Source of the DNA: Cyanobium usitatum str. Tous
GTDB taxonomy: Bacteria > Cyanobacteriota > Cyanobacteriia > PCC-6307 > Cyanobiaceae
Direction: 5' to 3'
Length of the DNA: 64,000 nucleotides
Assembly: GCF_003011885.1 (NCBI RefSeq)
Contig: NZ_PXXO01000003.1
Span: 62,001-126,000 of the forward strand
The position numbers and the translations under genes are program-made. Below are positions 5,884 through 58,275 of this stretch, piece by piece. The number at the start of each line of letters is the position of its first letter. Positions within the stretch are counted from its first letter, which is position 1. The notes under the pieces are model-generated. The model saw nothing but the letters and a program-made list of their open reading frames with translations, did not search any database and had not been told where the DNA came from.

Positions 5884-5914
5884 CTTTTAGTTCCGAGGGC
5901 GATTTGCTGATTCC
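5884..5914 (-). promoter_or_regulatory. bipartite motif, copy 1 (upstream of TPR gene)
   Basis: Read on the minus strand: TGGAATCAG, then 13 nt to GAACTAAAAG, with the exact spacing of the other copies. The start codon of the TPR gene is 31 nt from the first base of GAAC, the shortest leader of the set. It forms a divergent pair with copy 2, only 10 bp away. Confidence 0.75.
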
Positions 5915-5924
5915 AAGTGGATTT

Positions 5925-5955
5925 GGAATCACCCTCAAGCAACCAGAACGAGGAG
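5925..5955 (+). promoter_or_regulatory. bipartite motif, copy 2 (upstream of lipoprotein-like gene)
   Basis: TGGAATCAC, then 13 nt to GAACGAGGAG. The ATG of the downstream gene is 68 nt after the first base of GAAC. A small stem (GGAC-ACAA-GTCC, 5970-5981) lies in the leader. Back to back with copy 1. Confidence 0.8.
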
Positions 5956-6013
5956 AGGGCAGCAGCACGGGACACAAGTCCATCAGCCGCACCTTCACCC
6001 AAGTAAAAGGACT

Positions 6014-6334
6014 ATGGAATCCACGAAAAACAACAGCTGGCCAGTTCTGGGCGCAGCCTTTCTCATTCTTTGCGGAATCTGTACTGCATGTAGCGGCGGT
6101 AGTCAAGGGATGACTGACTACCAGCGGTCTCAAGTTCAACTCCAACAGCAGCAGCTTAATCAGCAGTCAATTGACAGTGCTCGTCAGGCTGCTCAAAGTG
6201 CCATGAACAATGCAACACAACTGCTGAATTCACCGGTCCCAGAATATGGTGTTGACCCGAACCAATCACAGACCAACTGTGTCACTGGAGCTGATTACAT
6301 GGGAAGGTTGGTGACCCAATGCAACAGCCAGTGA
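6014..6334 (+). CDS. putative small lipoprotein, Gln-rich
   Basis: A 106-residue protein with an N-terminal signal-type segment (WPVLGAAFLILCGICTAC) ending in an ICTAC sequence that could serve as a lipobox, followed by a Gly/Ser linker. The mature part is rich in Gln, Asn and Ser (QVQLQQQQLNQQSIDSARQA), helical at first, then CVTGADYMGRLVTQC with two cysteines at the end. It is likely anchored in the periplasm or outer surface. It is transcribed from copy 2 of the bipartite motif and converges with the secreted-protein gene 6339-7061. Confidence 0.65.
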   Translation: MESTKNNSWPVLGAAFLILCGICTACSGGSQGMTDYQRSQVQLQQQQLNQQSIDSARQAAQSAMNNATQLLNSPVPEYGVDPNQSQTNCVTGADYMGRLVTQCNSQ

Positions 6335-6338
6335 TTGG

Positions 6339-7061
6339 TTATCGACAAGCTCGTTGAATCACTGTTTGTTGAAGCTGCTTGATGGCGCTGCCTTCTGGAG
6401 CCTTATCGGAGAACAGCAGGGCCAGGGCAAGACCTTGCTGTTTGGTATTCAGTGCCGATTGGATTGACCCGCGCCAGGCCTGTGGATCAGATCCCAATTT
6501 TCGAATCTTGGCTTCCGTTTCTGACATGACTTCAGATGATCCTGCAACCAAGTTGTAACTAGCAAAATCACCCCCTGAGGCTCCCTTTGGCCGGACTCTT
6601 AATGTGAGTCTCTGGTTTGGACTCAGGGGCTGAATAGGCCAGGCAATGGGTCCTTCGATGCTCTTGGTGCTGGACGCTAGCTTTTGCCAGAGAATCCCAT
6701 CTTGGTTCTCAAGGCGAAGCTCATTTAAGGGGCCTTTAACAACAATTGTTGGTCGACTAACCAATGCCCGCAGGCTGGATCCTGATCCGATCTCGGCGGC
6801 AGATGCCCCTGGCGAGACCACACAAACACTGCCATCGCTACTACTACGACTGCCTCCCACCGCACTGGGGGTGCCGATTCCGACGAGTTCCCTGATTTGC
6901 TCAAGCAGACTGGGCTGAGGAGGTTTTGGCTTGTTCGCGGGCTTAGCGGCTGATGCCGCACTGAGCTGGGGCAATAGCAATGGGCCTGACAAGCAAAGTC
7001 CCAGAAGCCAAGGGCTGAGTCTGCTGTTGGCTGTTGCCCGGTAGGAGGAGGTTTTTTTCAT
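6339..7061 (-). CDS. secreted protein of CHAT-CHASE2 operon, possibly DUF928-like
   Basis: A 240-residue protein with a signal peptide (basic start, LLGLCLSGPLLLPQLSAASA, cleavage near residue 38). The mature part has a Ser/Gly-rich region and a beta-rich domain (SLRALVSRPTIVVKGPLNEL, then ENQDGILWQKL, then PNQRLTLRVRPKG). The layout recalls DUF928, a cyanobacterial periplasmic family often encoded with CHASE2-CHAT proteins, but I am not certain of membership. It starts 3 nt after the stop of the CHAT-CHASE2 gene, so it is the last gene of a tightly packed operon. Confidence 0.65.
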   Translation of the reverse strand: MKKTSSYRATANSRLSPWLLGLCLSGPLLLPQLSAASAAKPANKPKPPQPSLLEQIRELVGIGTPSAVGGSRSSSDGSVCVVSPGASAAEIGSGSSLRALVSRPTIVVKGPLNELRLENQDGILWQKLASSTKSIEGPIAWPIQPLSPNQRLTLRVRPKGASGGDFASYNLVAGSSEVMSETEAKIRKLGSDPQAWRGSIQSALNTKQQGLALALLFSDKAPEGSAIKQLQQTVIQRACR

Positions 7062-7064
7062 CTT

Positions 7065-9233
7065 TCAACGCCTGCTCAGGACGACGGCTGTGAGAGTTGC
7101 TAGTGGCAGAACCAGGGGGATGAGAAAGAGTGTGCCTCCCACCAGGGGCGTCACTGCAATTTGCAGGGCCACCACCGTAGTGGCAATGGCGATGACTCCC
7201 AGCCAGAGGAGTTGTCTTGATCGCCTTGTCTCCACTGCTGCAAGGACCACCCCAAGACCTGCAGCAAGTGCGGCCGTGGCACTTTGAAGCAGGGGGGTAA
7301 GCCAATGGTGCATGGCAACGGATTGGGCCAGAACGGCCTGCACCAAGACACCTGGGATTGTTGAATCCGCTTGCTCCAGACTGCTGAGGGCCCGCTTGGC
7401 TGCCCAAGGGGCCACAAAGACATCCTTCCTGCTGTTGGTTGTATTAACGCCGTAGCCATTACTGCCGACAAGAAGGATTGGGGCTTTGAGTTTTTCCAGT
7501 GATTGACGATCACGCATTGGCGTGATCATGCTTTGCCAGTTGATGGACCAATCGATGACTGCCTCTGATGGGATCTGACCATCTGCGTTTCCGCTGACTG
7601 CAACTGCAAAGTGTTTCCCCCATAAACCGTGGTGCAACTGAAGTGGCACTAGTTTCTCCTCTGGACAATTGGAATTGGAGTTTGAACTTGTTTCGACTGA
7701 CAGATCAAAGGATTGAAGTCCTTCAGCCGTCAGTTCCGTTAATGGGTGGGATGAACTTCCCGAATTAGGTGCACAGGTTGTGGGACCGAAGTAGCCAGCA
7801 AAAAGGCTTGGCCGCCGTTGCTTCTGGATCGTTGTCAGGAATTCCTGGTAGGCAGCTGGATCGGATCCCTTGGAATCAAGAACGAAGTCCAGGGCTACAG
7901 AGGGGACGCGTTCAGGTGGGGCTGCTTGCAGAACCCTGGCTAAAACCTGGCGGGAAACCTGATCGCCCTCCTGATTGGGATCGACACCGAAGTCTTGGTA
8001 GGCCTTGGCATCGAGCATGAGCAGGGGCAGCGCCGCAGTTGATGGACCTTCCTGGTGAGTGAGCTGCCGCCATACCCGCTGGACATTCAACCGTCGATCA
8101 AGCAATCCCAAGTTCACCGGGTTCCAGGGGACCAGATCGTTGGTGGCGCCGAGTACGACGGCAATAGCCGCTGCAACAAGCTGGGGTTTTTGGCTGCTTG
8201 CTAGGCGGAGCTTGATTTGTTGACGCTTCCTGAGCGGCAGGGTGAAGCCCGTGGCATCGGTGCAGCTCACAGCGCTGAGCAACAGTTCGCTAGTGGCCGG
8301 GCCTTCTCGGCCGAGCAGCTCACGGACCGCTCCTATGGCCTGGGAAAACGGAACTCCTGCTTCCAGCTTCTCAAGCAGGCTCAACACTGTGATGGCAGCA
8401 GCCTGGGTTGGGACTTTTTCGCGGAAGCACAGGGTCCAGGGGATTCCAGCGCCACAGAAGGTTTGGGCCAGATCCAACCCGCTGCAGCTGGCCAAAACGG
8501 CTAGACCCAGACCATTGGATGCGGCGGTTTTTAGTTCCGGTGTGAGTGACGCCCCTGCTATCGAGCCGCCATCACCAAGGAGTAGCCGCCCTCCAGTGGA
8601 GGGGTCGGCATCGGAATGGCCTAAGAACGCCAGCAAATCCCACCCTTTGGCTTGAGCCAGGGCAGATCGAATCGCAGATGGATGGCACTCAGCCCCCCGC
8701 AACACGGTGAGATCGATTCGTCCCTGCCGCTTGAGGGTTGAAAAACGCTCCAGTTCTGGGCTGAGATCGAGGCCGCGTTCATTGCCGACAAGCAGCAGAA
8801 CCCGGGTCAGACGCCCAGAAGATCGATTTGACTTGAGAGCACAGCTGGCTTGACCCAGCCGCCAAATGGGGCGAGCAAGGGGAAGCTGCTCCCAAGGAAG
8901 AAGGGCCAGTTGGCCCGTTCCATCGAAGCAAGAAATCCGCAGCGGCAAGCCTGGATGACTTTGCAGGGCCTGCTGCAGCGGTAGCCAGCTGCCGTCTTCC
9001 AGCCATTCGCCCAGCAACACGCATAGGCGTTCGGCGTAATGGCGCACCGCATCAGCTGTTGGCCGCCCTTGCTCCAAGTGGAGGATCAGTTTGTCGATCC
9101 ACAGGTCGCGAGAGCGGAACAGTTGATCAGGGATGGATAAGGCGAACGAGCGATTACCCGTAGGACCCTGCAAAAAAGCCGTTACGACAGGGCCTGTATC
9201 AGCCCTGTGCAGCTGCAGATCAAAGGACTCCAT
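7065..9233 (-). CDS. CHAT protease domain fused to CHASE2 sensor, membrane protein
   Basis: A 722-residue protein. Residues about 100-330 form a CHAT (caspase-like) domain with the catalytic pair visible: His206 in LLAFLGHSDAD and Cys250 in LAVLASCSGLD. A membrane segment near residue 350 (QLVAAAIAVVLGATNDL) is followed by a CHASE2-type extracytoplasmic sensor region (LPLLMLDAKAYQDFG, PSVALDFVLDSKG). At the C-terminus are three hydrophobic segments. The architecture (cytoplasmic protease, periplasmic sensor, membrane bundle) is known in cyanobacteria next to DUF1822. The start overlaps the DUF1822 stop (TGATG), so translation is coupled. The signal sensed and the substrate are unknown. Confidence 0.88.
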   Translation of the reverse strand: MESFDLQLHRADTGPVVTAFLQGPTGNRSFALSIPDQLFRSRDLWIDKLILHLEQGRPTADAVRHYAERLCVLLGEWLEDGSWLPLQQALQSHPGLPLRISCFDGTGQLALLPWEQLPLARPIWRLGQASCALKSNRSSGRLTRVLLLVGNERGLDLSPELERFSTLKRQGRIDLTVLRGAECHPSAIRSALAQAKGWDLLAFLGHSDADPSTGGRLLLGDGGSIAGASLTPELKTAASNGLGLAVLASCSGLDLAQTFCGAGIPWTLCFREKVPTQAAAITVLSLLEKLEAGVPFSQAIGAVRELLGREGPATSELLLSAVSCTDATGFTLPLRKRQQIKLRLASSQKPQLVAAAIAVVLGATNDLVPWNPVNLGLLDRRLNVQRVWRQLTHQEGPSTAALPLLMLDAKAYQDFGVDPNQEGDQVSRQVLARVLQAAPPERVPSVALDFVLDSKGSDPAAYQEFLTTIQKQRRPSLFAGYFGPTTCAPNSGSSSHPLTELTAEGLQSFDLSVETSSNSNSNCPEEKLVPLQLHHGLWGKHFAVAVSGNADGQIPSEAVIDWSINWQSMITPMRDRQSLEKLKAPILLVGSNGYGVNTTNSRKDVFVAPWAAKRALSSLEQADSTIPGVLVQAVLAQSVAMHHWLTPLLQSATAALAAGLGVVLAAVETRRSRQLLWLGVIAIATTVVALQIAVTPLVGGTLFLIPLVLPLATLTAVVLSRR

Positions 9234-10243
9234 CAGCTTTTCGGCAGTTGCAGCAAGGGCAGTTCAATCGGTTCACTGGATCCAAAAGCAACCGAAACGG
9301 CCAGCAACTCGGAGCTGGAGGGGAAGTTCAGATCCAAGTTGTCGCTGTTTTCACTGGTGATGGATTGAACGTGCTCACCTTGGCGCGCAATCAGGGTCAG
9401 GCCATCAGGAAGAAGGTCGCCGATCAGGGCAGGTGCCAGGCGTAAATACAGACCATCTGGGTGGATCGGAATTAGGGATAGATCGAATCGCTCAAGACAC
9501 CGCTGGGCTGTCAGACCCGTGACAAGCGACCCATCTGCCAGGCCAAGGGGAATAGAAACCATGGCCAGCGCCCCCTCAACAGGAGGCAAACCAACCCCAC
9601 TTCTGGTTGCACCGGCTGTAACGGGAACCAAACCACCACCTAGGGCAGCCAGGCTTTCATCGAGTTGACCGTTCAGCCAATCAAGAACCGAAACCACCGT
9701 CTTTTGCAAGGCGGTGATGGGATCAGCTGGAAGGGCCAGACGGGGCAGAGCGGCAGGTTCAAGAAGCTGAACCAGGATCAACAGCCGATCAATCCCCCCT
9801 TTGAAGCAAGCGGTATTGAGCACAAGAGCGGCTGAGTCGGAATCCGCATTTTTGGCTTGAGCCAGAAGCTCCTCCCCTGTCAGGACCCCAGGGAAAAAGA
9901 CGACGTTGTTCTCCTCATCTACGGCAGCAGCAAGCAAGAGCTGCGGGGCCAGGGCTGAGTCTTCCCAAAAGGATCGTTTGACTAAGACCTCATCACTGGT
10001 GATGCCAGTGGTCGCCAGCTGCACAGAGAAACGGTTCAAGCTCAACAGCCGAGCGGTATCCTCGGGTTCGATGGTTGGACCAAAAGGCAAATCAAGGTTC
10101 CGTTCATCCATGGCTTGCTTGAGGGCAGCCACGGCAAGAAGCCGGTCCTCGTGGGCAAACGCCAAGGGCAATTCGCCCAACTCGATTGCCCCTTGGGGCA
10201 TCTGCATCACATCAAGCGGTTCTTGGGAAGAGGGTGTGTTCAT
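9233..10243 (-). CDS. DUF1822 family protein
   Basis: A 336-residue protein with no signal peptide. It resembles the cyanobacterial DUF1822 family in length, in the Phe-Ser-Val-Gln-Leu segment near the N-terminus (LLSLNRFSVQLATTG), and in context: between a sigma-like gene and a CHASE2-CHAT gene. The start (ATG at 10243) overlaps the TGA of the upstream gene (ATGA) and the stop overlaps the CHAT-CHASE2 start. The three proteins are therefore made together. The role of DUF1822 is unknown; the constant linkage suggests an adaptor or a regulator of the protease or of the sigma-like protein. Confidence 0.82.
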   Translation of the reverse strand: MNTPSSQEPLDVMQMPQGAIELGELPLAFAHEDRLLAVAALKQAMDERNLDLPFGPTIEPEDTARLLSLNRFSVQLATTGITSDEVLVKRSFWEDSALAPQLLLAAAVDEENNVVFFPGVLTGEELLAQAKNADSDSAALVLNTACFKGGIDRLLILVQLLEPAALPRLALPADPITALQKTVVSVLDWLNGQLDESLAALGGGLVPVTAGATRSGVGLPPVEGALAMVSIPLGLADGSLVTGLTAQRCLERFDLSLIPIHPDGLYLRLAPALIGDLLPDGLTLIARQGEHVQSITSENSDNLDLNFPSSSELLAVSVAFGSSEPIELPLLQLPKS

Positions 10244-11538
10244 GGCTGGTTTAGGTATTGCTGAATCCAGCGGCGTAGGGGGGCGACATCTCCCTCTCGT
10301 TCTGGCTCCAGCAAGTGATTCCGAAGGGCATTAACCAAGCGCTCAGCCCCTTCTACGGACTGGCTGACGGAAGCAAAAGCCTGATGGCGATTGAGTTCTT
10401 GGGCTGCGGCTGTGGCGATGATGGTTGCGTGCTCGGTAGGGCGCAGCTTTTTGCTTACCGTCCCGCAGGTGGTGCCGCAGCGCTCGGCTAGAGGACGATT
10501 GGTGAGGCCCTCTGCCCAGCCAGCCCAGAGGCAGCGGAGGAGTTCCGCATTTTTCCCACTCGCAGCCAAGACGTCTGGCATGAGCTGGTCCATGGCCCGT
10601 TGCAATGCATCGCTTACCAGCGCTTTGAGCTCACCACTAGAAGGGCCAACATCATCATCTGAATTGGCCTGTGAGCTGGGATCGACGGGCTCAAAGCCAA
10701 CCTCAGCTGCTTGATCGAGGCTCTGGTTGGAGCTGCCGGTCAACAACAGGCGAACAGCCTTCGCGATCGCTTTCAGGCGTTCAGTAGTCGCGAAGGGATC
10801 CTGATCAGGAGCGAGCTCCCTGAGGAACGCCGGATCGGGCTGCCAGCCCGATGACTTGCCGGTTCTGTTTTTGTAGTCGCGCTTAGCGGCGTCATACAAA
10901 GGTCCATAACGGCTATGCAGGGCAGACAAAAAAACGACGGTGTCATTAGTTCTTAGTTGTTCCTGGCAGGCCTGGCGGACCCGGCTGGGGCTGCTATTGC
11001 GCAATAGGGCCCAATCTGAGATCAGAAGCAAGCCGTGCTGCCGGAAGTAGGCCTTGAGCTCGTTGTGAGCCTGAATTTTGAGCCTTGCCCAATGGGGCAG
11101 CCCGCAGAGTGCCGAGTCGTAACTGCGCAGGATCTCAGCGGAAAAGGGCGTGCTCATCCCTTTGGGAAGCAATGCCAGTTGTGTATGGGCGAAGGGCTTC
11201 AGCTCATCAGGCCCAATACGGAGCGTGAGCTTCCCCTCATCGTCGAGGGCGTAACTCGCCATGGCCAACAGCTCAAGCCCGTAGCGTTCTTCGTTGGCTC
11301 TGTGGGTGGCACAAAGCCAGGCTTCTAGAGCATGGCTGATGCGGCAGCGCAGGCAGAGCAAGGGCAGTGGGTCATCGTCCCGCATCCCCGCAAGGAGCAA
11401 CGCAGTATCAAAGCTTCGTGATGGCTCTGGCTCTGGCTCTTGGTCATGGCCCTGGCCCAAATACTGGGCGGCGTCTGCCAAAAGCCTGGGCTTGATTCCA
11501 GTGGTCGTGAGACTGCAGAGCTCCTGGTATTGCCCCAT
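10240..11538 (-). CDS. sigma-like / HTH regulator of the CHAT-CHASE2 operon
   Basis: About 432 residues from the ATG at 11538 (the frame is open further; a GTG just upstream is an alternative). A mid-region RYGPLYDAAKRDYKNRTGK and a C-terminal helix-turn-helix (LLRCLWAGWAEGLTNRPLAERCGTTCGTVSKKL, a sigma region-4-like pattern) recall the sigma-70-like proteins encoded with DUF1822 in cyanobacteria. A second possible domain follows (ERLVNALRNHLLE). It is the first gene of the operon (ATGA overlap with DUF1822) and is divergent from a gene driven by bipartite motif copy 3. It is the best candidate in the window for the protein that reads the motif, which is inference. Confidence 0.6.
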   Translation of the reverse strand: MGQYQELCSLTTTGIKPRLLADAAQYLGQGHDQEPEPEPSRSFDTALLLAGMRDDDPLPLLCLRCRISHALEAWLCATHRANEERYGLELLAMASYALDDEGKLTLRIGPDELKPFAHTQLALLPKGMSTPFSAEILRSYDSALCGLPHWARLKIQAHNELKAYFRQHGLLLISDWALLRNSSPSRVRQACQEQLRTNDTVVFLSALHSRYGPLYDAAKRDYKNRTGKSSGWQPDPAFLRELAPDQDPFATTERLKAIAKAVRLLLTGSSNQSLDQAAEVGFEPVDPSSQANSDDDVGPSSGELKALVSDALQRAMDQLMPDVLAASGKNAELLRCLWAGWAEGLTNRPLAERCGTTCGTVSKKLRPTEHATIIATAAAQELNRHQAFASVSQSVEGAERLVNALRNHLLEPEREGDVAPLRRWIQQYLNQP

Positions 11539-11604
11539 TGCAGCCCTGCAGGTCTGTCGCACCGTAGGAAAGCGAAGCTGGTTTTGCCCAGTCCACAGCG
11601 ATCT

Positions 11605-11635
11605 GGAATCACTTCGAGGCAGGCAGAACAAGAGG
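11605..11635 (+). promoter_or_regulatory. bipartite motif, copy 3 (upstream of small exported protein)
   Basis: TGGAATCAC, 13 nt, then GAACAAGAGG. The ATG at 11674 is 48 nt after the first base of GAAC. It sits in the divergent region between the sigma-like gene (start 11538) and the exported protein. A hairpin GTGGC-TGCG-GCCAC (11652-11665) ends 8 nt before the ATG, and no Shine-Dalgarno sequence is present. Confidence 0.8.
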
Positions 11636-11673: not shown

Positions 11674-11943
11674 ATGAGCATCCCCAGATTGAACCCATTC
11701 CTGTTGGGCGCTGCTGCCGCCGTTGCCGGGCTTCTTACCCAACCAGCCCAGGCCCAGATGTATGGCTATGGCAGTGGCTGGCAGCAGCCAAGGCAAAGCG
11801 GCCCGCTCATGAGGCCCAGCCAATCCGGAGGCATCTACCAGTCCAACCGACCCGTGATGCAACAACCAAGCTTCGGCCCACAACGTCAGATGCCCAGTCA
11901 ACAGGGCAATGGCTACAGGAGCGGTAGCTATTTCGGCTGGTAG
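11674..11943 (+). CDS. small exported Gln/Gly/Tyr-rich protein
   Basis: An 89-residue protein: signal peptide (FLLGAAAAVAGLLTQPAQAQ, cleavage after AQA near residue 27), then a low-complexity mature chain rich in Gln, Ser, Gly, Pro and Tyr (MYGYGSGWQQPRQSGPL), ending NGYRSGSYFGW. The ending resembles the NGWSSGDYFG block of the paralogous pair 15319-15594 and 57491-57769. It is preceded by bipartite motif copy 3. It lies opposite to and upstream of the sigma-like operon. Function unknown; such composition is seen in matrix or surface peptides. Confidence 0.7.
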   Translation: MSIPRLNPFLLGAAAAVAGLLTQPAQAQMYGYGSGWQQPRQSGPLMRPSQSGGIYQSNRPVMQQPSFGPQRQMPSQQGNGYRSGSYFGW

Positions 11944-12320
11944 GTAGCCCAGGCAATTCACAACCCGACGAAAAGTGGGTCGATTTAGTCCCCGCTTTCT
12001 TTTGGTTCAACCGTTGAGATATGCGGCATTACGGCGTAACCTCAGAACAGCACCCGTCGTTGCAGTTGCATTTAGTGGCGGCCCTTTTGGATTGACATGG
12101 CTTGCAACTTCATCCGCCGCCACATTCCTTATGCTAACGCTTTGGTGATTCAATCTGCAACAGCTTATTCCATAATTTCTACTGGGCTTGATTTAGTTGC
12201 TCCTCTGCTAATACGGCCAGAGCGGATGTCGCGTGTAACTTCGCCAGGGAGCAGGCCATGTGAAGTAACAAGGGGAACCAGGAGGCAATTTGCCATGCAA
12301 AATGTTTGCAGACGGTGGCC
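11944..12320 (+). other. non-coding stretch upstream of TPR-CHAT gene 1
   Basis: I see no convincing gene here. It does not contain an intact bipartite motif. It does hold GAACCAGGAG at 12275-12284, which matches only the downstream half and lies 46 nt before the ATG at 12321, the same distance as in true copies. The upstream half is absent at the expected position. The GGAGG within it is too far from the start codon to be a ribosome binding site. Confidence 0.4.
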
Positions 12321-15221
12321 ATGACAGGTAAATCCTTAGGCTTCGTACATAAGGGGCTCGCCATCAGCCTCATGGCATCTGCGGCACTGGTCTCAGTACA
12401 GCCGGGTTATGCAGCTACTGCCAGGGTGGCACAGGCGAATGTCAATCAAAGCACACGTAATCAGCCTGATCTTAAGGCGATGATTGAGCGGGCTGAAAAA
12501 CTACGCACGGAAGAGAAGTTTGGTCCTGCGGCAACCATCTGGCAGCAAATATTGCTCGTTGTTGAAAAGTTGCATGGGCCGGATCATCCCGATGTAGCCA
12601 ACAGCCTCAGTAACCTTGCGTTTCTTCTGAACACACAGGGACGGTATGCCGCTGCCGAACCCCTCTATCGCCGCTCCCTGGCCATCCGAGAAAAAGCCCT
12701 CGGGCCTGACCATCCCGAAGTTGCGTGGAGTCTCAATAATCTGGCGTTGATGCTGAACGAGCAAGGGCGGTACGGTGCCGCCGAGCCTCTCTACCGTCGC
12801 TCACTGGCCATCAAAGAAAAAGCTCTCGGGCCAGACCATCCCGATGTCGCTACCAGTCTCGTCAACCTTGCAGATCTTCTGAAGAATCAAGGGCGGTATG
12901 GTGCCGCCGAGCCTCTCTACCGGCGCTCACTGGCCATCCTAGAAAAAGCTCTCGGGCCGGACCATCCCGAGGTTGCGTTAATTCTCAATAATCTTGCAAT
13001 GCTTCTGAGTAAGCAGGGTCAGTACGCAGCAGCCGAGTCTTTCTATCGCCGTTCTCTGGCCATTCACAAAAAAGCCTTCGGGCCGGATCACCCCGCCGAC
13101 GCACCTGTCCTCAACAACCTGGCGTCGCTTCTGAGCGACCAAGGTCAGTATGCCGCAGCCGAGGCGCTCTATCGACGCTCTCTGGCAATTCAAGAAAAAG
13201 CATTAGGACCGGGTCATCCCAATGTAGCCATTCTCATCAACAACCTGGCGTTGCTTCTGAGCGACCAAGGTCAGTACGCCGCAGCCGAGGCGCTCTATCG
13301 ACGCTCTCTGGCAATTCAAGAAAAAGCCTTCGGGCCGGATCACCCCGTTACCGCAGTTATCCTCAACAACCTGGCAGAGGTTTTCTATTATCGTGGGCAA
13401 TACAGCTCCGCCGAGCCACTAGTTCGACGATCACTGGCCATCCGTGAAAGTGTTCTGGGGGCAAATCATCCCGATGTCGCTACAACGCTTGGCAAGCTGG
13501 CGTTTCTTCTAGGCGAACAAGGTCAGCACAGCAGCGCCCTAATCGTTCTTGATAAATCTGAAAAGGTAAAGACAAACTGGTACCTAAAAGAACTTCCGCT
13601 GCTTCCCGATCGAGATCGGGCCACTCAATTACGCCAACTAGCGGATGGGGATGAAAGGGAATATACCTTCGGGATGATTGAGTTCTACCCACCCGCGGTC
13701 CAACTAGCTCTGGAGACCCGTCTCAACCGCCAAGGCTTGCTTCGGGATATTGAACGGAGTCAGGCCTTGCTGCTCAATTCACCTGGTGTTGATCGCATAA
13801 AGGTGAAGCAGTTGCAGGCTCTGGCCCAGCAACTGACATCTGTCACGTTGTCGATTGATCGCCGCGCTGAGGTGGCCAGACAACGGGGCAAACTGCAGGC
13901 TGAGATCTACCGACAGATCCCAGAGCTGCAGCTTCACCCTGTAACCACCGCTGAGGTAGCCAAGGCATTGCCGGCTGATGGGGCATTGGTGGAGTTCCAG
14001 CGCTACCAGCCCTTTGACGGGCGTAAGCAAAAAGACCAGCGCTGGGGCGCGGCCCAGTACATCGCCCTTGTGCTCAAACCCAACGGCAGCATCAGCGCAG
14101 TGCCTCTCGGAGCAGCAGCGGCGATTGACGCGCAGGTGCATAAGGGGCTGAGGGCCTCGGCGGATGGACTCTCTGATGCCGAGTCGATCTGGGCTCAGCT
14201 AAGCATCCAACTGCTCAAGCCCCTATTGCCTCAGCTGACTGACAGCCACCAATGGTTTCTCTCCCCTGATGGTGAGCTCAACCGGGTGCCGTTTGCCGCA
14301 CTGCCAGCCCCGCAGCAAATGGGTACACCCCTGGCTCAGGCGGTGCAGCTGCGGCTGCTCACCACCGGCCGGGAACTAGTTCGGCTCCAACAACCCGCAC
14401 CGCCTGGCAGTGAAGCACTGGTGATGGCCAATCCCAACTACGAGCGCCCCAGCACCAAGCCGCCGCCAGCCAGAAAGCCCGATGCGGTGTCCACCATGAC
14501 TCAGCGACGCTCAGCGGAGATGGGCAGCAACCAGTGGAATCCGTTGCCGGCCTCAGAACTTGAGGGGCAAAAGGTGGCGAAGCTGCTGGCTACCGGGCTG
14601 ACCAGCGGGGCAGCAGCCACGACCACGGCGCTGCAACGCCTGCAGGGCCCCAGGGTGCTGCATATTGCCACTCACGGCTTCTTTGTCGCTGATCAGGAGA
14701 CCAAACCCACAGAAGGAATGCGAGCAATCCAGGAGGGGTCGCCGCTGCTGCGCTCCCTGCGCCAGGAAGACCCCCAACTGCGCAGCGGCTTGGTACTTGC
14801 CGGCGCCAACCAGCCTGACCTCGACCCCAACGACGACGGATATCTGACCGCGGCCGAGGCGGTGACGCTGAACCTCAAGGGAACTGAGCTGGTAGTGCTT
14901 TCGGCATGCTCCACAGGCCAGGGGGAAGTGCGCACCGGTGAGGGTGTCTACGGGCTACAGCGCTCGCTAACCGTGGCAGGCGCCAGAAGCACTCTCCTTT
15001 CTCTCTGGAAGGTGGATGATGCGGCTACGGCTGAATTCATGACCCGCTTCTACAAGCGCCTTAAGGCAGGAGAGGGAAGAAGCGACGCTTTGGCCGCTAC
15101 CCAGAAGGAGTTCCGCGACGTACAGGTTCGTGATCCCCAATCCAAATTGGTCTGGAGTTCGCCGTATTACTGGGCAGCCTGGCAGCTGGTAGGGGATTGG
15201 CGGCCTATCAAAGGTCTCTAA
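12321..15221 (+). CDS. exported TPR-CHAT protein 1
   Basis: A 966-residue protein. A signal peptide (AISLMASAALVSVQPGYAAT) leads into eight near-identical 42-residue kinesin-light-chain-type TPRs (residues about 75-410; GPDHPDVA and EPLYRRSLAI in each repeat). A helical linker is followed by a C-terminal CHAT domain with catalytic His785 (LHIATHGFF) and Cys863 (VLSACSTGQGE), and the family end SPYYWAAWQLVGDWRPI. CHAT proteins are caspase-like proteases; the TPRs would bind targets or regulators. The signal peptide places it outside the cytoplasm. I chose the ATG at 12321 because the frame's upstream codons precede the signal peptide awkwardly. It heads the run of small-protein genes that follows. 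Confidence 0.9.
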   Translation: MTGKSLGFVHKGLAISLMASAALVSVQPGYAATARVAQANVNQSTRNQPDLKAMIERAEKLRTEEKFGPAATIWQQILLVVEKLHGPDHPDVANSLSNLAFLLNTQGRYAAAEPLYRRSLAIREKALGPDHPEVAWSLNNLALMLNEQGRYGAAEPLYRRSLAIKEKALGPDHPDVATSLVNLADLLKNQGRYGAAEPLYRRSLAILEKALGPDHPEVALILNNLAMLLSKQGQYAAAESFYRRSLAIHKKAFGPDHPADAPVLNNLASLLSDQGQYAAAEALYRRSLAIQEKALGPGHPNVAILINNLALLLSDQGQYAAAEALYRRSLAIQEKAFGPDHPVTAVILNNLAEVFYYRGQYSSAEPLVRRSLAIRESVLGANHPDVATTLGKLAFLLGEQGQHSSALIVLDKSEKVKTNWYLKELPLLPDRDRATQLRQLADGDEREYTFGMIEFYPPAVQLALETRLNRQGLLRDIERSQALLLNSPGVDRIKVKQLQALAQQLTSVTLSIDRRAEVARQRGKLQAEIYRQIPELQLHPVTTAEVAKALPADGALVEFQRYQPFDGRKQKDQRWGAAQYIALVLKPNGSISAVPLGAAAAIDAQVHKGLRASADGLSDAESIWAQLSIQLLKPLLPQLTDSHQWFLSPDGELNRVPFAALPAPQQMGTPLAQAVQLRLLTTGRELVRLQQPAPPGSEALVMANPNYERPSTKPPPARKPDAVSTMTQRRSAEMGSNQWNPLPASELEGQKVAKLLATGLTSGAAATTTALQRLQGPRVLHIATHGFFVADQETKPTEGMRAIQEGSPLLRSLRQEDPQLRSGLVLAGANQPDLDPNDDGYLTAAEAVTLNLKGTELVVLSACSTGQGEVRTGEGVYGLQRSLTVAGARSTLLSLWKVDDAATAEFMTRFYKRLKAGEGRSDALAATQKEFRDVQVRDPQSKLVWSSPYYWAAWQLVGDWRPIKGL
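12565..13510 (+). repeat. tandem 126-bp repeats encoding TPRs
   Basis: Eight head-to-tail copies of a 126-bp unit, each coding for one 42-residue TPR. Some neighbouring units are almost identical at DNA level: the stretch starting near 13120 recurs almost unchanged near 13246. This points to recent duplication or gene conversion within the gene. Confidence 0.8.
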
Positions 15222-15251
15222 CACCAGTGGTGACAATGGTTTAGCCGTTTT

Positions 15252-15282
15252 GGAATCACCCGCCTGACGTTCGAACGAGAGG
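15252..15282 (+). promoter_or_regulatory. bipartite motif, copy 4 (upstream of small exported protein)
   Basis: TGGAATCAC, 13 nt, then GAACGAGAGG. The ATG at 15319 is 46 nt after the first base of GAAC. The leader has a short stem TGGC-GCTC-GCCA (15299-15310) ending 8 nt before the ATG, and no Shine-Dalgarno sequence. Confidence 0.82.
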
Positions 15283-15318: not shown

Positions 15319-15594
15319 ATGAAAAGCCTTGTTCGTTTCCTCGCAGTTGCTGGTTCCATCGCTTCAATCTCGGCAACCGCAGTTCAACCCGCATCTGCTC
15401 AATGGGCTACCTACGGACTGAGCCGCCAACAAATTGAGCTCCAGCGTGGAAATGGCTGGTCTAGTGGCGACTATTTCGGATCTGGTGGCGGTCCCAGGAG
15501 TCAGTATCAGCGTGTAAGCAATGACTACTCACCCGGAATGGACCAGAACATCCGTTATCGCTCTGGCTCCTGTGCTCAATATATCTATTGCTGA
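15319..15594 (+). CDS. small exported protein, family A (paralogue of 57491-57769)
   Basis: A 91-residue protein with a signal peptide (LVRFLAVAGSIASISATAVQ, cleavage after PASA near residue 27). The mature part reads QWATYGLSRQQ, then NGWSSGDYFG, then SPGMDQNIRYRSGSCAQYIYC. The gene at 57491-57769 has the same blocks in the same order (QWGSYGLSQQQ, NGWSSGDYFG, TPGLQNNVRYRQNSCATYLNC), so the two are paralogues. Two cysteines at the C-terminus may form a disulphide. It is driven by motif copy 4 and ended by a clear intrinsic terminator. It sits between two TPR-CHAT genes. I recognise no described family. Confidence 0.8.
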   Translation: MKSLVRFLAVAGSIASISATAVQPASAQWATYGLSRQQIELQRGNGWSSGDYFGSGGGPRSQYQRVSNDYSPGMDQNIRYRSGSCAQYIYC

Positions 15595-15654: not shown

Positions 15655-16117
15655 TGTAGGCATCTGTATAGATACGTGGTTTCTTCAAAAAAGTCAGATC
15701 TGAGATTATTTGATTAAGTATCTATTGAGTATTCTTCTGTACAGGTCTGGCGCATAGCTGGCCATAGCCCCTAGATCCAAGCTGGCACTTTTCTACCATT
15801 GCTCATGGGTTGCTCTCATCCACGCCTCGAGGGGGTGACTCAGTCTGCAGCGCATGCAGAGCAGGGGGAACGGGTCAGGCTCCGCTAGGCATCTTGTCAG
15901 CAGTTCCCTATCCTGCGCTGGAGTGGGTTACTCCCCTATCTATCCAAGCTGGTTTAGCCAGGATTGTGCTGCGGGGATGGGCTTGGCTTTGATAACTCCT
16001 GTGGACTCAAGCCTCTTGATCTCCGTAAAGACCTGCACAAAAATAAATAAGTGGCTTATCAAAACCGAACACGCAGTAAGATCATGCGACATGATAGAGC
16101 GTATAGACTGTAACGCT
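15655..16117 (+). other. non-coding stretch before TPR-CHAT gene 2
   Basis: It lies between the terminator and the second TPR-CHAT gene. The downstream frame is open back to 15854, but the translated extension (QSRGNGSGSARHLVSSSLSC and so on) is not protein-like, and the signal peptide begins after 16118. No copy of the bipartite motif was found. Base composition changes from GC-rich to AT-rich towards its right end. Confidence 0.4.
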
Positions 16118-18982
16118 ATGGATAGGATGAAGCCGTTTGCCCTGCGGGTTGTTCTCATGATTTCCACCTTGGCTATAGTAGCCAATGGAATTCAGGCAAG
16201 ATGCGCACATGCCATTGTAGCGAACAGCAATAATGAAGAAAAAAGCAACATCGCCGAGCCAGATTCAAGGCCGATTTTTTTTAGATTAGTTTCTGAAGCA
16301 AATGAAAAATGCAAAAAACATGAGTTGGAGAAGAAAGAATTAGATCTGCGAGATGCTGAAAGCTTGTTTCTGAAGGCAAGAAGTCTTGCCAAAAAAGGAA
16401 GAGACGGCAATGGAATTAGGTCATTAGTGGATCTACAATACATACAGAACTGCCTGGTGAAACGAAATGACTGGGATGCAATTATTCAGCTCGCAGCTGA
16501 AATTAAAGAAAGCGTTGGGGAATATAAGACCGAATTAGAAAAAAGCCTATATCTAGACTCCCTTGACTGGGGAGGATGGGCTCTGTATAAGAGAGGAGAA
16601 ATAGAAAAGGCGATTGACAGCAGAGAAGAGATTTTAAGGCTTGGCCCCGCAGAACCAAATTGGAGCCTAAATCATCTGATACTTATCATAGAGCAAACAG
16701 TAGGGATAGCCTCGGAAGCAAATAAATTCGAGAAAGCCGACCAATTAATAACAAAGGGCGACCAATTAGTTTCTAAGATGCAAGCTGGCGAAGAGAAAGA
16801 CAGGCTAACCGCAGAAGTTTCAATATTGTTAATGAAATCCATATCAATGCAAAGGAGATCAGACTATCTAGGTGGCTTAAAAATGGCCAGGCAAGCCGAA
16901 ATGATAATCAAAAGCTCAAAGCAGCCCCCCATGTATCAATATCTTATGTACAGAATCTATGCAAACGAAGGCTCGTCTTATGAAGGACTTGATAAATACG
17001 TGCAAGCGCTAGAAGCATTCCAATCTTCACTAAAGTGTGCAGAAAAGATTTTCGGCAGCAACAGCAGGGAAGTTGCTGTTGGATACCTAAATATTGCCTC
17101 CCAATACAACGAAATTGGCAAGTATCAGGAGGCTATAAGCGCACTAATGAAAGCCAATGGCATCGCAGTCGATGTACTTGGCAATAATGACCCAGACACC
17201 ATAAACATACATCAACTAATGGCTGCAGTTAAATTCAATATGAGGAAAACTGGAATTGCTGAATTAGCAGCACAAAGCGCTGAAATTAGCGAGTCTGAAA
17301 GGATCCAAAAAATAACTAAAGTCTATGACCCATTTATTGGGCAAATGGAGCTAAACAAAGCTGCTATGTTAATAGATCTGGGGAAAGCAGAAGAGGCGTT
17401 TTTGATTGCCAAAAGTGGTGTAACTAAGATTTCTGAATCGATCCAGACAATACTTCCTCGGCTATCAGAAAGAGAGAGAGTCGGAGCGGCAAATAGTATT
17501 GAAGGTGATATCCAGGCAATATACTCTTACATGAAAAAGATGAATGGCTTTGGGAAAGCGAATGAACTTGCATTGTTTGCTCGAATAAATACTCATGGGC
17601 TAATTCAAGAGTTAGCAAGAAGGCAAGTGGTGCTTAACCCCGGAGACAAGCAGGGTAAGCAATTAATCAAAGAGCTGGATGAACTTCACCAAAGAGGTGT
17701 TAACGAACTAGTGAGCCCATCAAGAAAAGAAGAATTAAATTTAAAAAAAAATGAATTTGAGCGTGAATTGTATTCGCGAATTCCGGCTCTTAGGCCATTA
17801 TTAGTGTCAAGCGAAGATATAGGCAAGAAAATGGGAAGCGGAGGAATCCTTATTGAGCTTGTCAAGTATCGGCCCTGGGACATCAGCAAACCACGATCCG
17901 AAAGATGGAGCAATGCGCGCTATCTGGCACTTGTTTACAGCGCGAGACTGAACACTAGCTATTTTGACCTTGGCGAGGCAAAAGAAATAGATAAAATAGT
18001 AGACGAGGCTTTGGTTTCTGCCCAGGAAAATCTTTCTGATTCAACTGAGCAACTCAATAGAGTAGAAGCTTTGGTTTTCAAGCCTCTAATGAAAATAATC
18101 GCTCCATATAAGGAAATTTATCTCGTACCAGACGGAGAGCTCCATAGAGTCCCGTTTGCCGCCCTAAGTATTTTCCAGTCAAGACTCAAGAAGCTAAGGT
18201 TGCTGACAACATCCCGAGAGCTTGTGCTTGAAAAATCTAATTCATCAAGTACTGGGAAGCCAGTAATTTTTGCAAATCCGAATTACAACAAGGGTCTAAG
18301 TGGTGAACCACATACTAATGCTGGCAAAAAAGATAACGAAAGAGGATCAATAAGTGGGTGGGCGATTTTGCCTGGTTCGTTGGTAGAAGGGCGACAAATT
18401 GCGGATACATTAAAGGGTGAACTTGTAACTGGCGACGAGGCTACGGATACAAGGTTAAAAGCAATGAAGAGTCCAAATATATTGCATCTTGCTACTCATG
18501 GCTTTTTTTATCGAGCTGAAAAAGCATCAAGCGATGATCCAATGAGCCATAGTGGAGTTGTGTTGGCCGGTGCCAATGCTGGATTAACTGGCAACAATTT
18601 CGGTAGTGGAGTATTGACTGCCAGCTCTGTCTCTCTGCTGAACCTCACTGGCACAGAATTAGTTGTTCTTTCTGCTTGCGAAACGGCCAATGGCACGATA
18701 CAAAGTGGAGAAGGTGTATACGGGCTTCAACGTGCACTATCAATCGCCGGATCACATAGTACTCTCTTGTCGCTATGGAAAGTTGATGACAATGCAACAG
18801 CCGCATTCATGAATATTTTTTATAAGCGTTTGAAGACTGGTGAAGCTCGAAGTGAAGCCCTAATTAATACACAGTCTGATTTTAGAGAGGGGAGGTTGTC
18901 GAAGGAGAAAGGCTGGCAAAATCCTTACTACTGGGCTGCCTGGCAGCTAACTGGCGATTGGCGTCCAATAGCAGGGCTCTGA
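16118..18982 (+). CDS. exported TPR-CHAT protein 2, AT-rich gene
   Basis: About 955 residues. A signal peptide (FALRVVLMISTLAIVANGIQ, possible cleavage near AHA) is followed by a long helical TPR-like region (for example ALEAFQSSLKCAEKIFG, then EVAVGYLNIASQYNEIGKYQ) and a C-terminal CHAT domain with His794 (LHLATHGFFYR) and Cys854 (VLSACETANG), ending NPYYWAAWQLTGDWRPI. The CHAT half is clearly homologous to protein 1 (SPDGELNRVPFAAL against VPDGELHRVPFAAL). The start could be ATG 16118, 16127 or 16091. The gene is visibly richer in A and T than its neighbours, suggesting separate acquisition. Confidence 0.87.
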   Translation: MDRMKPFALRVVLMISTLAIVANGIQARCAHAIVANSNNEEKSNIAEPDSRPIFFRLVSEANEKCKKHELEKKELDLRDAESLFLKARSLAKKGRDGNGIRSLVDLQYIQNCLVKRNDWDAIIQLAAEIKESVGEYKTELEKSLYLDSLDWGGWALYKRGEIEKAIDSREEILRLGPAEPNWSLNHLILIIEQTVGIASEANKFEKADQLITKGDQLVSKMQAGEEKDRLTAEVSILLMKSISMQRRSDYLGGLKMARQAEMIIKSSKQPPMYQYLMYRIYANEGSSYEGLDKYVQALEAFQSSLKCAEKIFGSNSREVAVGYLNIASQYNEIGKYQEAISALMKANGIAVDVLGNNDPDTINIHQLMAAVKFNMRKTGIAELAAQSAEISESERIQKITKVYDPFIGQMELNKAAMLIDLGKAEEAFLIAKSGVTKISESIQTILPRLSERERVGAANSIEGDIQAIYSYMKKMNGFGKANELALFARINTHGLIQELARRQVVLNPGDKQGKQLIKELDELHQRGVNELVSPSRKEELNLKKNEFERELYSRIPALRPLLVSSEDIGKKMGSGGILIELVKYRPWDISKPRSERWSNARYLALVYSARLNTSYFDLGEAKEIDKIVDEALVSAQENLSDSTEQLNRVEALVFKPLMKIIAPYKEIYLVPDGELHRVPFAALSIFQSRLKKLRLLTTSRELVLEKSNSSSTGKPVIFANPNYNKGLSGEPHTNAGKKDNERGSISGWAILPGSLVEGRQIADTLKGELVTGDEATDTRLKAMKSPNILHLATHGFFYRAEKASSDDPMSHSGVVLAGANAGLTGNNFGSGVLTASSVSLLNLTGTELVVLSACETANGTIQSGEGVYGLQRALSIAGSHSTLLSLWKVDDNATAAFMNIFYKRLKTGEARSEALINTQSDFREGRLSKEKGWQNPYYWAAWQLTGDWRPIAGL

Positions 18983-19022
18983 CACCGCCCCTAAACTATG
19001 AACCATTAGCTGGATTGCAAAT

Positions 19023-19053
19023 GGAATCACCCGAAGAAACCTGGAACTAGGGG
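19023..19053 (+). promoter_or_regulatory. bipartite motif, copy 5 (upstream of repeat protein)
   Basis: TGGAATCAC, 13 nt, then GAACTAGGGG. The ATG at 19095 is 51 nt after the first base of GAAC. The motif's downstream flank (TAGGTGTCCGGAGGGAAA) is shared with copy 6, so these two leaders are duplicates. The leader contains a perfect stem GGAGGG-AAAA-CCCTCC (19063-19078). Confidence 0.82.
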
Positions 19054-19094
19054 TAGGTGTCCGGAGGGAAAACCCTCCACCCATCAACAATCCC

Positions 19095-19334
19095 ATGTTT
19101 TTCCAGCAGATCCGCCCAACCCTTGGTGGCGGCTACAACATCATGGACAACCAAGGTCATTACACCCAGGTACAACCCACCCTTGGCGGTGGTTGCAATA
19201 TCTGGGACAACAAAGGTCATTTCACCCAAGTCAACCGCACCTTGGCTGGGGGCTACAACATCATGGATAACCAAGGACATTTCACCCAGGTTCAACCCAC
19301 ACTTGGCGGTGGGTGGAACATTTTTGGCAATTAG
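19095..19334 (+). CDS. small protein made of 20-residue Gly/Asn repeats
   Basis: A 79-residue protein that is almost nothing but a repeat: PTLGGGYNIMDNQGHYTQVQ, repeated nearly four times with changes at few positions (Y/C/W after GGG, M/W/F after NI). There is no signal peptide. The regular 20-residue period with Gly-Gly-Gly and Asn turns suggests a beta-solenoid or amyloid-like stack. It is transcribed from motif copy 5 and is followed by the interrupted exported ORF at 19376. I recognise no described family. Confidence 0.72.
   Translation: MFFQQIRPTLGGGYNIMDNQGHYTQVQPTLGGGCNIWDNKGHFTQVNRTLAGGYNIMDNQGHFTQVQPTLGGGWNIFGN
19113..19334 (+). repeat. 60-bp tandem repeats coding for the Gly/Asn repeat protein
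   Basis: Three full copies and one partial copy of a 60-bp unit in phase with the reading frame. Many differences fall at third codon positions (for example CATTACACC against CATTTCACC), so the protein sequence appears kept under selection. Confidence 0.75.
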
Positions 19335-20012: not shown

Positions 20013-20055
20013 GTGGTTTAGATCGGTGAGATAGGTGCGGGCGCTGGAGGGATTT

Positions 20056-20086
20056 GGAATCACCCGACTTCCGCCAGAACTAGAGG
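20056..20086 (+). promoter_or_regulatory. bipartite motif, copy 6 (upstream of small exported protein)
   Basis: TGGAATCAC, 13 nt, then GAACTAGAGG. The ATG at 20128 is 51 nt after the first base of GAAC. The leader is largely duplicated from copy 5, with a stem AGGTGT / ACACCT (20088-20109, 10-nt loop). No Shine-Dalgarno sequence next to the ATG. Confidence 0.82.
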
Positions 20087-20127: not shown

Positions 20128-20373
20128 ATGCGTACTCGCATCCTTGCTCTGATCGCTGCTACACCTCTTGCTTTGATGGCTGGAAGCAATGTGGCACAAG
20201 CCTATCCGCTGTCTTACTACGGCTATGAATCTCCTTCCAGCAGCTATTTGATGGTTGATGGCCCTGGTGGCTACTCCGGCATGGGTTTTGGTGGAAGGAA
20301 TTGGGGAATGTATTCCGATAACTATGGCAGCACCACCTGCGTGTCTTCTGGCAACGCAGTGATGTGCTTTTAA
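20128..20373 (+). CDS. small exported Gly/Ser/Tyr-rich protein
   Basis: An 81-residue protein with a good signal peptide (TRILALIAATPLALMAGSN, cleavage after AQA near residue 25). The mature chain is rich in Tyr, Ser and Gly (YPLSYYGYESPSSSY, later GGYSGMGFGGRNWGMYSDNY) and ends CVSSGNAVMCF with two cysteines, as in family A. It differs in sequence from family A but shares its size, composition, C-terminal cysteine pair and promoter motif (copy 6). It is followed after 30 bp by a larger hypothetical gene in the same direction. Confidence 0.75.
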   Translation: MRTRILALIAATPLALMAGSNVAQAYPLSYYGYESPSSSYLMVDGPGGYSGMGFGGRNWGMYSDNYGSTTCVSSGNAVMCF

Positions 20374-29369: not shown

Positions 29370-32885
<3,516 letters not shown>

Positions 32886-32888
32886 CCT

Positions 32889-35780: not shown

Positions 35781-35795
35781 CCCCCACCCAGTTCC

Positions 35796-55747: not shown

Positions 55748-55767
55748 GTCCTGTTGGCTATCGCATC

Positions 55768-57099: not shown

Positions 57100-57175
57100 G
57101 TGTCAATGCCAAGGTCGAAGGTATGAAGAGGAAATGGAATCTAGTCAATCAATAGCTATACATCCAGGATGCTCT

Positions 57176-57484: not shown

Positions 57485-57490
57485 GGGAGA

Positions 57491-57769
57491 TCAGCAGTTG
57501 AGGTATGTGGCGCAGCTGTTCTGGCGGTAGCGCACGTTGTTCTGAAGTCCGGGCGTGTAACCGCCGTCATAGGGCTGCTGCTGAATCCGGGGTTGCTGGG
57601 GTGCACCGAAGTAATCGCCGCTGCTCCAGCCGTTGCTGCGTTGTTGCCGCTGCTGCTGCTGGCTGAGGCCGTAGGAACCCCATTGAGCAGTAGCAGGCTC
57701 AACAAGAAGTGTGGTAAAGGAGGCGACGGTGGTCGCTGCAGCGGCAAGCAGGGTGAGGAAGGCTTTCAT
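57491..57769 (-). CDS. small exported protein, family A (paralogue of 15319-15594)
   Basis: A 92-residue protein with a signal peptide (AFLTLLAAAATTVASFTTLL, cleavage after ATA near residue 28). The mature part QWGSYGLSQQQ, then NGWSSGDYFG, then TPGLQNNVRYRQNSCATYLNC matches the gene at 15319-15594 block by block. A Gln/Pro-rich spacer lies between. The C-terminal pair of cysteines is kept. It is driven by motif copy 8, with a stem ending 8 nt before the ATG and no Shine-Dalgarno sequence. The shared blocks 42 kb apart show a real protein family. Confidence 0.82.
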   Translation of the reverse strand: MKAFLTLLAAAATTVASFTTLLVEPATAQWGSYGLSQQQQRQQRSNGWSSGDYFGAPQQPRIQQQPYDGGYTPGLQNNVRYRQNSCATYLNC

Positions 57770-57805
57770 GGGTCGGACGGCCAAGGGCCGCGGGCTGAAC
57801 GGTTC

Positions 57806-57836
57806 CTCCTCGTTCTGGGTTTGGCTCCCTGATTCC
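57806..57836 (-). promoter_or_regulatory. bipartite motif, copy 8 (upstream of family A exported protein)
   Basis: Read on the minus strand: TGGAATCAG, 13 nt, then GAACGAGGAG. The ATG at 57769 is 46 nt from the first base of GAAC. A stem CGGCC-CTT-GGCCG (57778-57790) ends 8 nt before the ATG. Confidence 0.82.
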
Positions 57837-57854
57837 ATGACGGTGTGTCCCGTG

Positions 57855-58160
57855 TCAATCAGGTTGATGGCCGCCCATTGCTCCAGGTCCCGCTCCTCCC
57901 GAGCAGCAGGCCAACACCCATGCAGCCAGCTGTGACACCAACATGTGCACCAGCATTGCCTGGCCAGCGTTGTACCCCTCTTGACCACCGGTGCTCCCCT
58001 GCGCAATCCGTGCCGTGGAGAGGAGGCTCCTCGGTGATGAGTTGCCATTGGCATTCAGGCCGATTCTGCAGAGAGTGTCGGCACACAGGGCCTCATTGGT
58101 AGAGGCAGATGCTTGGCTGGCAATCAGCAATGAGACGACAAGAAAAGAAGTTACCCGCAC
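57855..58160 (-). CDS. small exported protein, GTG start
   Basis: A 101-residue product from GTG 58160: a signal peptide (VTSFLVVSLLIASQASAS) then a mature chain with cysteines (TNEALCADTLCRIGLNANGN) and a hydrophobic stretch near the end (LVHMLVSQLAAWVLACCSGG). It ends 18 bp before motif copy 8, so the two transcription units do not overlap. A much-degenerated motif-like sequence (GGAATGGT, then 13 nt, then a GAGAAG tail) lies 35 nt upstream. I consider it probable but not certain. Confidence 0.5.
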   Translation of the reverse strand: MRVTSFLVVSLLIASQASASTNEALCADTLCRIGLNANGNSSPRSLLSTARIAQGSTGGQEGYNAGQAMLVHMLVSQLAAWVLACCSGGAGPGAMGGHQPD

Positions 58161-58244
58161 GGTGCGAGGAGGGGAACATCCCTTGCTTCTCACCTGCGTG
58201 GGCCACAGACCATTCCAGCGGATTCCAGGCGCCATACCGCCAGT

Positions 58245-58275
58245 GGAATCAGCTTCAGAGACTTGGAACAAGGAG
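58245..58275 (+). promoter_or_regulatory. bipartite motif, copy 9 (upstream of 58-residue protein)
   Basis: TGGAATCAG, 13 nt, then GAACAAGGAG. The ATG at 58311 is 45 nt after the first base of GAAC. A perfect stem GCAGC-ATGA-GCTGC (58290-58303) ends 7 nt before the ATG. Confidence 0.8.

Follow-up and report, generated by a model that had tools for sequence, protein, structure and literature searches.

Based on a computational analysis of a 64,000-nt stretch of the genome of Cyanobium usitatum str. Tous (the window), we propose that a two-box DNA element, TGGAATCAS-N13-GAACNARRRG, is probably the core promoter of a dedicated, divergent, long-linker sigma-70-family factor, which would be encoded in the same island by the gene at 10240-11538(-), hereafter the regulator gene. 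The promoter would take the form TGGAATCA-N12/13-(A/G)GAACNARRRG-N4-(T/C)GT. In this scheme, TGGAATCA would be the -35 box, contacted by the C-terminal region-4-like helix-turn-helix of the factor, GAACNARRRG would be the -10 box and discriminator, and transcription would start near the TGT/CGT. The computations themselves show the motif, its two spacings, where it stands with respect to start codons, its association with the regulator gene and the DNA-level constraint on a copy inside that gene.

A direct pattern search of the window returned eight exact matches (Table 1). All eight intact copies listed in an initial annotation of this DNA were thereby confirmed at the sequence level; the sites were right, but each 31-nt span was one base short because the pattern covers 32 nt. 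The distances from GAAC to ATG that it had given (31, 68, 48, 46, 51, 51, 46 and 45 nt) also stand. When up to 3 mismatches are allowed, the window holds 11 matches, against a mean of 0.50 and a maximum of 3 in 100 dinucleotide shuffles. The whole genome (2,515,215 bases in 25 contigs) contains eight exact matches to the pattern and none to the reversed pattern; with up to 3 mismatches the counts are 38 and, for the reversed control, 9. Since every one of the eight exact matches lies in the window, the regulon is local to one island and not genome-wide. A search of the whole genome and of relatives had been proposed with that annotation; it found the element in related picocyanobacteria, but in the organism itself the copies are confined to one island. 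A ninth, degenerate copy described earlier does exist at 20991-21022(+) with 3 mismatches, but its score is under the position-matrix threshold, and the ATG after it runs straight into TAA; it would be a relic at best. It retains a TAGGCAT leader like those of its neighbours and perhaps marks a decayed target gene.

The element recurs in other picocyanobacteria, with guanine-plus-cytosine (GC) contents from 31 to 70%, ahead of many genes that are unrelated to one another. Across 757 kb of neighbourhood sequence, GGAATCA-Nk-GAACNAR (the S of the full pattern here counts within k) occurs 61 times at k=14, 26 times at k=13, once at k=5 and never at any other k within 4-30; the reversed control gave 2 in all, and a matrix scan of the reversed sequence found no match at threshold in any of 31 stretches. 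The spacer was thus not, as first described, exactly 13 nt throughout: copies with a spacer one base shorter occur in several genomes, and one of them is in the window, at 10293-10322(-), a site missing from the initial annotation. A tolerance of one base is usual in the spacing of -35 and -10 boxes. For the finer anatomy we used the 54 exact copies in the fetched neighbourhoods. Because the search pattern fixes the core letters, their conservation is by construction, and the informative positions are those outside them, where purines are kept within ARRRG and T/C-G-T is kept at +36 to +38, counted from the start of the motif. The regulator-less genomes G079, G295, G289 and G102 were left out of the counts of anatomy, spacing, TATAAT matches, folding and grouping and of matrix building.

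The position of the element relative to genes is equally regular. An ATG opening a frame of at least 35 amino acids (aa) follows 53 of the 54 copies, and in 50 of these 53 the first such ATG lies 20-62 nt past the element (median 37). In seven copies it comes just 21-25 nt past the element and therefore leaves no room for a separate downstream promoter. Matches to TATAAT at 5 of 6 positions are rarer than in shuffles on both sides: among copies from AT-rich genomes (n=21), 3 against 7.1 downstream and 5 against 11.7 upstream, and among those from GC-rich genomes (n=33), 0 against 1.0 and 0 against 1.8, respectively. This agrees with the earlier statement that no TATAAT-like box fits between motif and ATG. 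A canonical sigma-70 promoter near the element was considered and rejected, as none was evident and TATAAT-like matches fell below the shuffle level. The two-box layout with a spacing tolerance of about 1 bp, the orientation toward the gene and the short leader are those of a bacterial -35/-10 promoter.

The element tracks the regulator gene. This gene is present in 26 of 300 genomes of the family, which we took as the 300 included in a motif search of 400 genomes; in that search 56 genomes were positive at spacing 13 or 14, and the reversed control gave 13 matches. The strict motif (GAAC[AGT]ARRRG, spacing 13/14) occurs in 22 of the 26 regulator-positive genomes versus 6 of the 274 regulator-negative ones (Fisher p=4e-24), and in 19 of 26 (p=2e-19) when three genomes whose sole copy lies inside the regulator gene are discounted; these p-values ignore phylogeny, and their inputs were tallied by hand. 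With N free and ARRRG kept, the figures are 23/26 and 7/274. In a held-out set drawn from the 100 genomes used in the motif search alone (all 6 motif-positive and 34 of the 94 motif-negative ones, 40 in total), the regulator was found in 4/6 and 2/34, respectively (p=0.002). Genome G005 serves as a natural control: it has neither regulator nor motif, yet it carries a homologue of the 91-aa gene that the motif heads in the window, and upstream of this homologue there is nothing motif-like (best matrix score -15.8). The window copy at 11604-11635(+) is divergent from the regulator gene and about 67 nt from its start, and divergent copies lie 61-147 nt from the regulator start in 6 of 22 genomes and 270 nt from it in a seventh.

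The identity of the regulator was approached by profile comparison. The regulator gene, about 430 codons long, is common to the neighbourhoods of the window, of G004, which is of the same genus (67% identity), and of G032 (30% identity), which has a GC content of about 31% and belongs to a different genus of the family. Compared by hhalign with an alignment of DUF1822-adjacent proteins of other cyanobacteria, the regulator profile matched at E 5.3e-12 over 219 columns, the C-terminal helix-turn-helix included. That alignment (A5) has 6 members; the 5 that were scanned with the TIGR02937 sigma model all pass its cut-off. A control alignment of the DUF1822 proteins themselves gave E 0.44. The homology extends from region 2 to region 4, as in the sigma-70 superfamily, with the region-2-like and helix-turn-helix segments about 150 residues apart as read from the alignment. 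Among ten DUF1822 neighbours scanned, five pass TIGR02937, one falls below the cut-off, one is weak and three give no match; a Leptolyngbya homologue of the regulator matches at E 0.0013, below the cut-off. On a Pseudanabaena plasmid, the regulator homologue is followed by an annotated DUF1822 gene and then a CHASE2 gene. The Leptolyngbya and Pseudanabaena loci hold no mismatch-free copy of the motif. Structural comparison by VIA-align returned many sigma chains, but at Z<5 and on models of low to middling confidence, which neither show nor exclude a sigma fold. The linked sigma-like regulator, the 13/14-bp spacing and the depletion of TATAAT together support the alternative sigma factor suggested in the initial annotation, but not the strict spacing and genome-wide scope that went with it.

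One copy of the promoter candidate lies inside the regulator gene itself. In the window, the short-spacer copy is on the regulator strand, and the following gene, 9233-10243(-), has its ATG about 50 nt further on. The same arrangement, with a short-spacer copy at the 3' end of the regulator gene and on its own strand, was found in 15 of the 22 genomes examined for it, and in most of them the start codon of the downstream gene is again about 50 nt away. The copy overlaps codons for R/K-N-H/Y-L...E-R/Q/L. We parsed 23 of 28 rows, setting aside G284 and G174 (mis-anchored) and G069, G290 and G273 (no N-H/Y-L); AAT and GAA-CNA are kept in 23/23, whatever the residue. In the ten rows with Arg at the site, the codon is CGA in 10/10 and Asn is AAT in 10/10, whereas the remaining parts of these genes have CGA in 13/307 and AAT in 18/59. 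Since rare codons are kept there, this intragenic site seems to be constrained as DNA and not just as protein.

The genes headed by the motif are diverse, and most of them are small. The 53 downstream products fall into 29 groups at a BLASTP E of 1e-4, of which 22 are single (some from doubtful open reading frames). Because unrelated genes are headed by it in several genera, the element is of a regulon type, as first supposed, and not a duplicated leader. A hydrophobic, signal-like N-terminus after K/R is present in 33 of the 42 products of up to 150 aa, compared with 70 of 356 control small open reading frames from the same stretches; "exported" here denotes a hydropathy rule and reading, with no signal-peptide predictor. 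Most targets therefore fit the small exported proteins named in the earlier description, but the 206-aa TPR gene and the signalling operon do not. The exact pattern occurs in 4 of 60 genomes, namely the organism's own, G004, G032 and G056. G004 has two exact and three degenerate copies within 12 kb, and G032 has one exact and one near copy; five of these seven copies head genes whose products have a signal-like N-terminus, and one of these products measures 250 aa. In G004, a homologue of the window 91-aa gene (54% identity) begins 36 nt after one of the copies, the same distance as in the window. The single exact match in G056, a member of another family, has C at N, and that genome lacks a counterpart of the window small gene. 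Of additional note, the 79-aa product in the window consists of near-repeats (TLGGGYNIMDNQGHYTQVQP) with no obvious signal peptide, and a motif-headed 64-aa product at G126:C1:284126 has a stretch ending in VTGG, which we take to resemble double-glycine peptide leaders. In G089, L136 (6712-7608) and L137 (8962-9855), the regulator has as its neighbour a short gene for a DnaB-like helicase/ATPase of about 298 aa, and a motif copy precedes this gene in G089 (C1:72047) and in G071 (C24:5574; regulator on another contig).

The main rival to a promoter read by the linked sigma factor is an operator read by an ordinary regulator. The two halves would then be direct-repeat half-sites about two helical turns apart, the linked protein an activator or repressor, and transcription would start from a separate sigma-70 promoter. 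The likeness of GGAAT and RGAAC is what operator half-sites would show, the regulator has a C-terminal helix-turn-helix, its sequence-only matches in the PDB are generic helix-turn-helix proteins (MarR, LsrR; E about 0.02-0.1), and the linkage of motif and regulator fits this reading equally well. We nevertheless consider it unlikely: no conserved or enriched second promoter is found upstream or downstream, an activated promoter would not fit downstream, where the first ATG can be as near as 21 nt, the two spacings differ by 1 bp, and the profile homology of the regulator is to sigma proteins. The likeness of the halves and the PDB matches do count against our proposal, as do several further results. 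The window regulator matches none of the Pfam or NCBIfam sigma models (TIGR02937, Sigma70_r2/r4), and its structure models are weak (predicted local distance difference test scores of 61 and 74), with best Foldseek E values of 1.6 and 1.5 and no significant PDB match. C at N was excluded from the strict motif after copies had been seen, and the looser GAACNARNNG gives a weaker association (24/26 versus 26/274), many of the matches on the 274 side having C at N. Two of the held-out genomes, G390 and G328, carry the regulator but no match to the pattern searched for. No motif lies near the gene in the regulator-positive G290 and G273, and these two and G217 have either no nearby motif or only an unlike, distant one; the G217 regulator is a fragment, and its surroundings lie outside the fetched neighbourhoods. 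G069 has no strict copy, only relaxed ones near its regulator gene.

The promoter-like features would hold regardless of which sigma factor reads them. They could thus serve one encoded elsewhere, the linked gene being an accessory regulator (an activator or anti-sigma-like protein), in keeping with its lack of a direct sigma-model match. This seems improbable to us, since the strict element is largely missing from regulator-negative genomes, so that the recognising factor must be co-inherited, and since relatives at the same genomic position pass the sigma model. A 5' untranslated RNA signal acting on translation or stability, transcribed from elsewhere, would share the fixed orientation and place before the ATG. 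Among the 50 leaders with ATG at 20-62 nt, the set used for folding, 12 do fold better than z=-1.5 shortly after the element, but 38 do not, and the mean z is -0.48; a conserved 5' hairpin, seen in this subset only, was rejected as the real signal. The spacer varies in sequence and is nearly fixed in length, which points to DNA phasing, and no promoter is seen upstream, so we give this reading very little weight. In some leaders, a small GGAGG-loop-CCTCC hairpin stands right after the element (window 19053-19095, and similarly in G089 and G254) and would hide a Shine-Dalgarno-like sequence; not all 12 folding leaders are of that form. Finally, some targets are paralogous, such as the genes at 15319 and 57491, both motif-headed, as would be expected if one duplicated leader had spread with its gene. 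The 29 groups among 53 products speak against such a spread, and chance is made very unlikely by the shuffle, reversed-pattern, matrix and spacing controls, the shuffle and reversed controls being near zero; we regard duplication or chance as practically negligible.

We suggest a plausible scheme for the island on the basis of the promoter reading. The partner CHAT (CHASE2-related) protein would sense a signal and then free or activate the sigma factor, which would transcribe a set of mostly small exported proteins, while the promoter inside the factor's own 3' coding end would drive transcription of the partner operon. In the window, G004 and G032, the regulator gene is followed by a gene in the DUF1822 position, after which the window and G004 have a CHAT gene; genes for TPR-CHAT proteins are found near by. 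The 336-aa product of the second gene was considered as a plain DUF1822 member, and this was not established: its comparison with DUF1822 gave only E 0.035, and its placement there is by position. PF08852 has no match in 37 genomes of the window's family, the organism's own included, and the 17 positives among 60 genomes all belong to other families. At 15745-16029(-), overlapping the start of a TPR-CHAT frame (15854-18982), there is a degraded match to the N-terminal part of the regulator with three stops; a second regulator may thus have been present in the island at one time. The stretch 29370-39137, which separates the two motif clusters, contains three large frames and is possibly a defence cassette; the first frame, the one scanned, is a helicase with an NOV_C domain.

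Table 1. Copies of the element and associated genes in the window.
Feature	Position	Strand	Context or basis
Motif copy, promoter candidate	5884-5915	-	Before 206-aa TPR gene 5242-5862(-)
Motif copy	5924-5955	+	Before 106-aa exported/lipoprotein-like gene 6014-6334(+)
240-aa protein, signal-like N-terminus	6339-7061	-	Last gene of regulator operon; no Pfam match
CHAT (caspase-like) protein	7065-9233	-	Positional counterpart in G004 also matches CHASE2
336-aa protein, DUF1822 position	9233-10243	-	Position; DUF1822 homology not established
Candidate sigma factor/regulator, 432 aa	10240-11538	-	Profile homology, motif linkage
Ninth motif copy, spacer one base shorter	10293-10322	-	Inside 3' end of regulator gene
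Motif copy	11604-11635	+	Before 89-aa exported gene 11674-11943(+)
TPR-CHAT protein, signal-like N-terminus, island partner	12306-15221	+	Domain match
Motif copy	15251-15282	+	Before 91-aa exported gene 15319-15594(+)
TPR-CHAT protein, island partner	15854-18982	+	Domain match
Motif copy	19022-19053	+	Before 79-aa repetitive gene 19095-19334(+)
Motif copy	20055-20086	+	Before 81-aa exported gene 20128-20373(+)
Degenerate copy, probably relic	20991-21022	+	3 mismatches; ATG-TAA follows
Motif copy	57806-57837	-	Before 92-aa exported gene 57491-57769(-), paralogue of 15319-15594
Motif copy	58244-58275	+	Before 58-aa gene 58311-58487(+) with hydrophobic segment
TPR-CHAT protein near distal motif pair	58968-61646	-	Domain match

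Promoters of extracytoplasmic function (ECF) sigma factors have a GGAAC-type -35 box, and GAACNARRRG is not a usual ECF -10 box. The element resembles ECF promoters in its GGAAT -35-like half, its gap on the scale of 16 bp to the second box, its short leader and its co-encoded factor. ECF factors are defined by regions 2 and 4 lying less than 50 residues apart, in the available part of a 2024 domain survey (PMC11119718). The factor proposed here differs from strict-sense ECF (group 4) factors in having about 150 residues between the region-2-like and region-4-like parts; because of this linker, we do not claim strict ECF membership. The same survey, as far as its available part goes, gives 14 Prochlorococcus species as holding only A.1-family sigma factors (PMC11119718). 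Some Prochlorococcus genomes in our set, which may or may not belong to those 14 species, carry the sigma candidate.

The gene arrangement recalls neighbourhoods described by Kaur et al. (eLife 2021; PMC8195603), in which, according to the available part of that paper, an ECF sigma gene, DUF1822 and an EACC2-caspase gene occur together, some with CHASE2, and the coupled sigma factor is proposed to act downstream of caspase-like sensing, with the potential to control many genes. Here, too, a sigma-like gene, a gene in the DUF1822 position and a caspase-like protein are found, in matching order. In contrast to those neighbourhoods, the caspase-like domain identified here is CHAT, the sigma candidate has diverged too far to be recognised by sigma models, and the second gene could not be shown to be homologous to DUF1822; the available part of Kaur et al. 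gives no promoter or regulon, whereas the element here is defined. The island also resembles, by description, Syn_GI122, a genomic-island module of marine Synechococcus/Cyanobium with secreted CHAT-domain and uncharacterised surface proteins (PMC7522525); unlike here, no regulator, promoter or small-protein regulon figures in the available part of its description. No prior report of the promoter, the regulon or the intragenic copy was found in the open-access literature searched. The gene linkage was thus already predicted by Kaur et al., and the promoter, regulon and intragenic copy are new as far as our searches show.

With these results, a predicted linkage of sigma-like, DUF1822 and caspase-like genes, for which our searches found no earlier test, becomes a regulon that is concrete enough to be tested and has its promoter defined. 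As an orthogonal expression switch, a private pair of sigma factor and promoter would be worth trying. We offer, as a tentative wider picture with somewhat less than even chances, that a cryptic sigma factor missed by standard models makes the island a self-contained switch: a caspase-like membrane sensor may gate the factor, the factor may read a private promoter that this genome has in the island alone, the codons of the factor's conserved C-terminal peptide may double as the promoter of the sensor operon and so provide feedback, and the output may be fast-changing, tiny exported proteins. Some of the most abundant photosynthetic cells belong to the host group. Small exported proteins may be an output of caspase-like signalling in bacteria.

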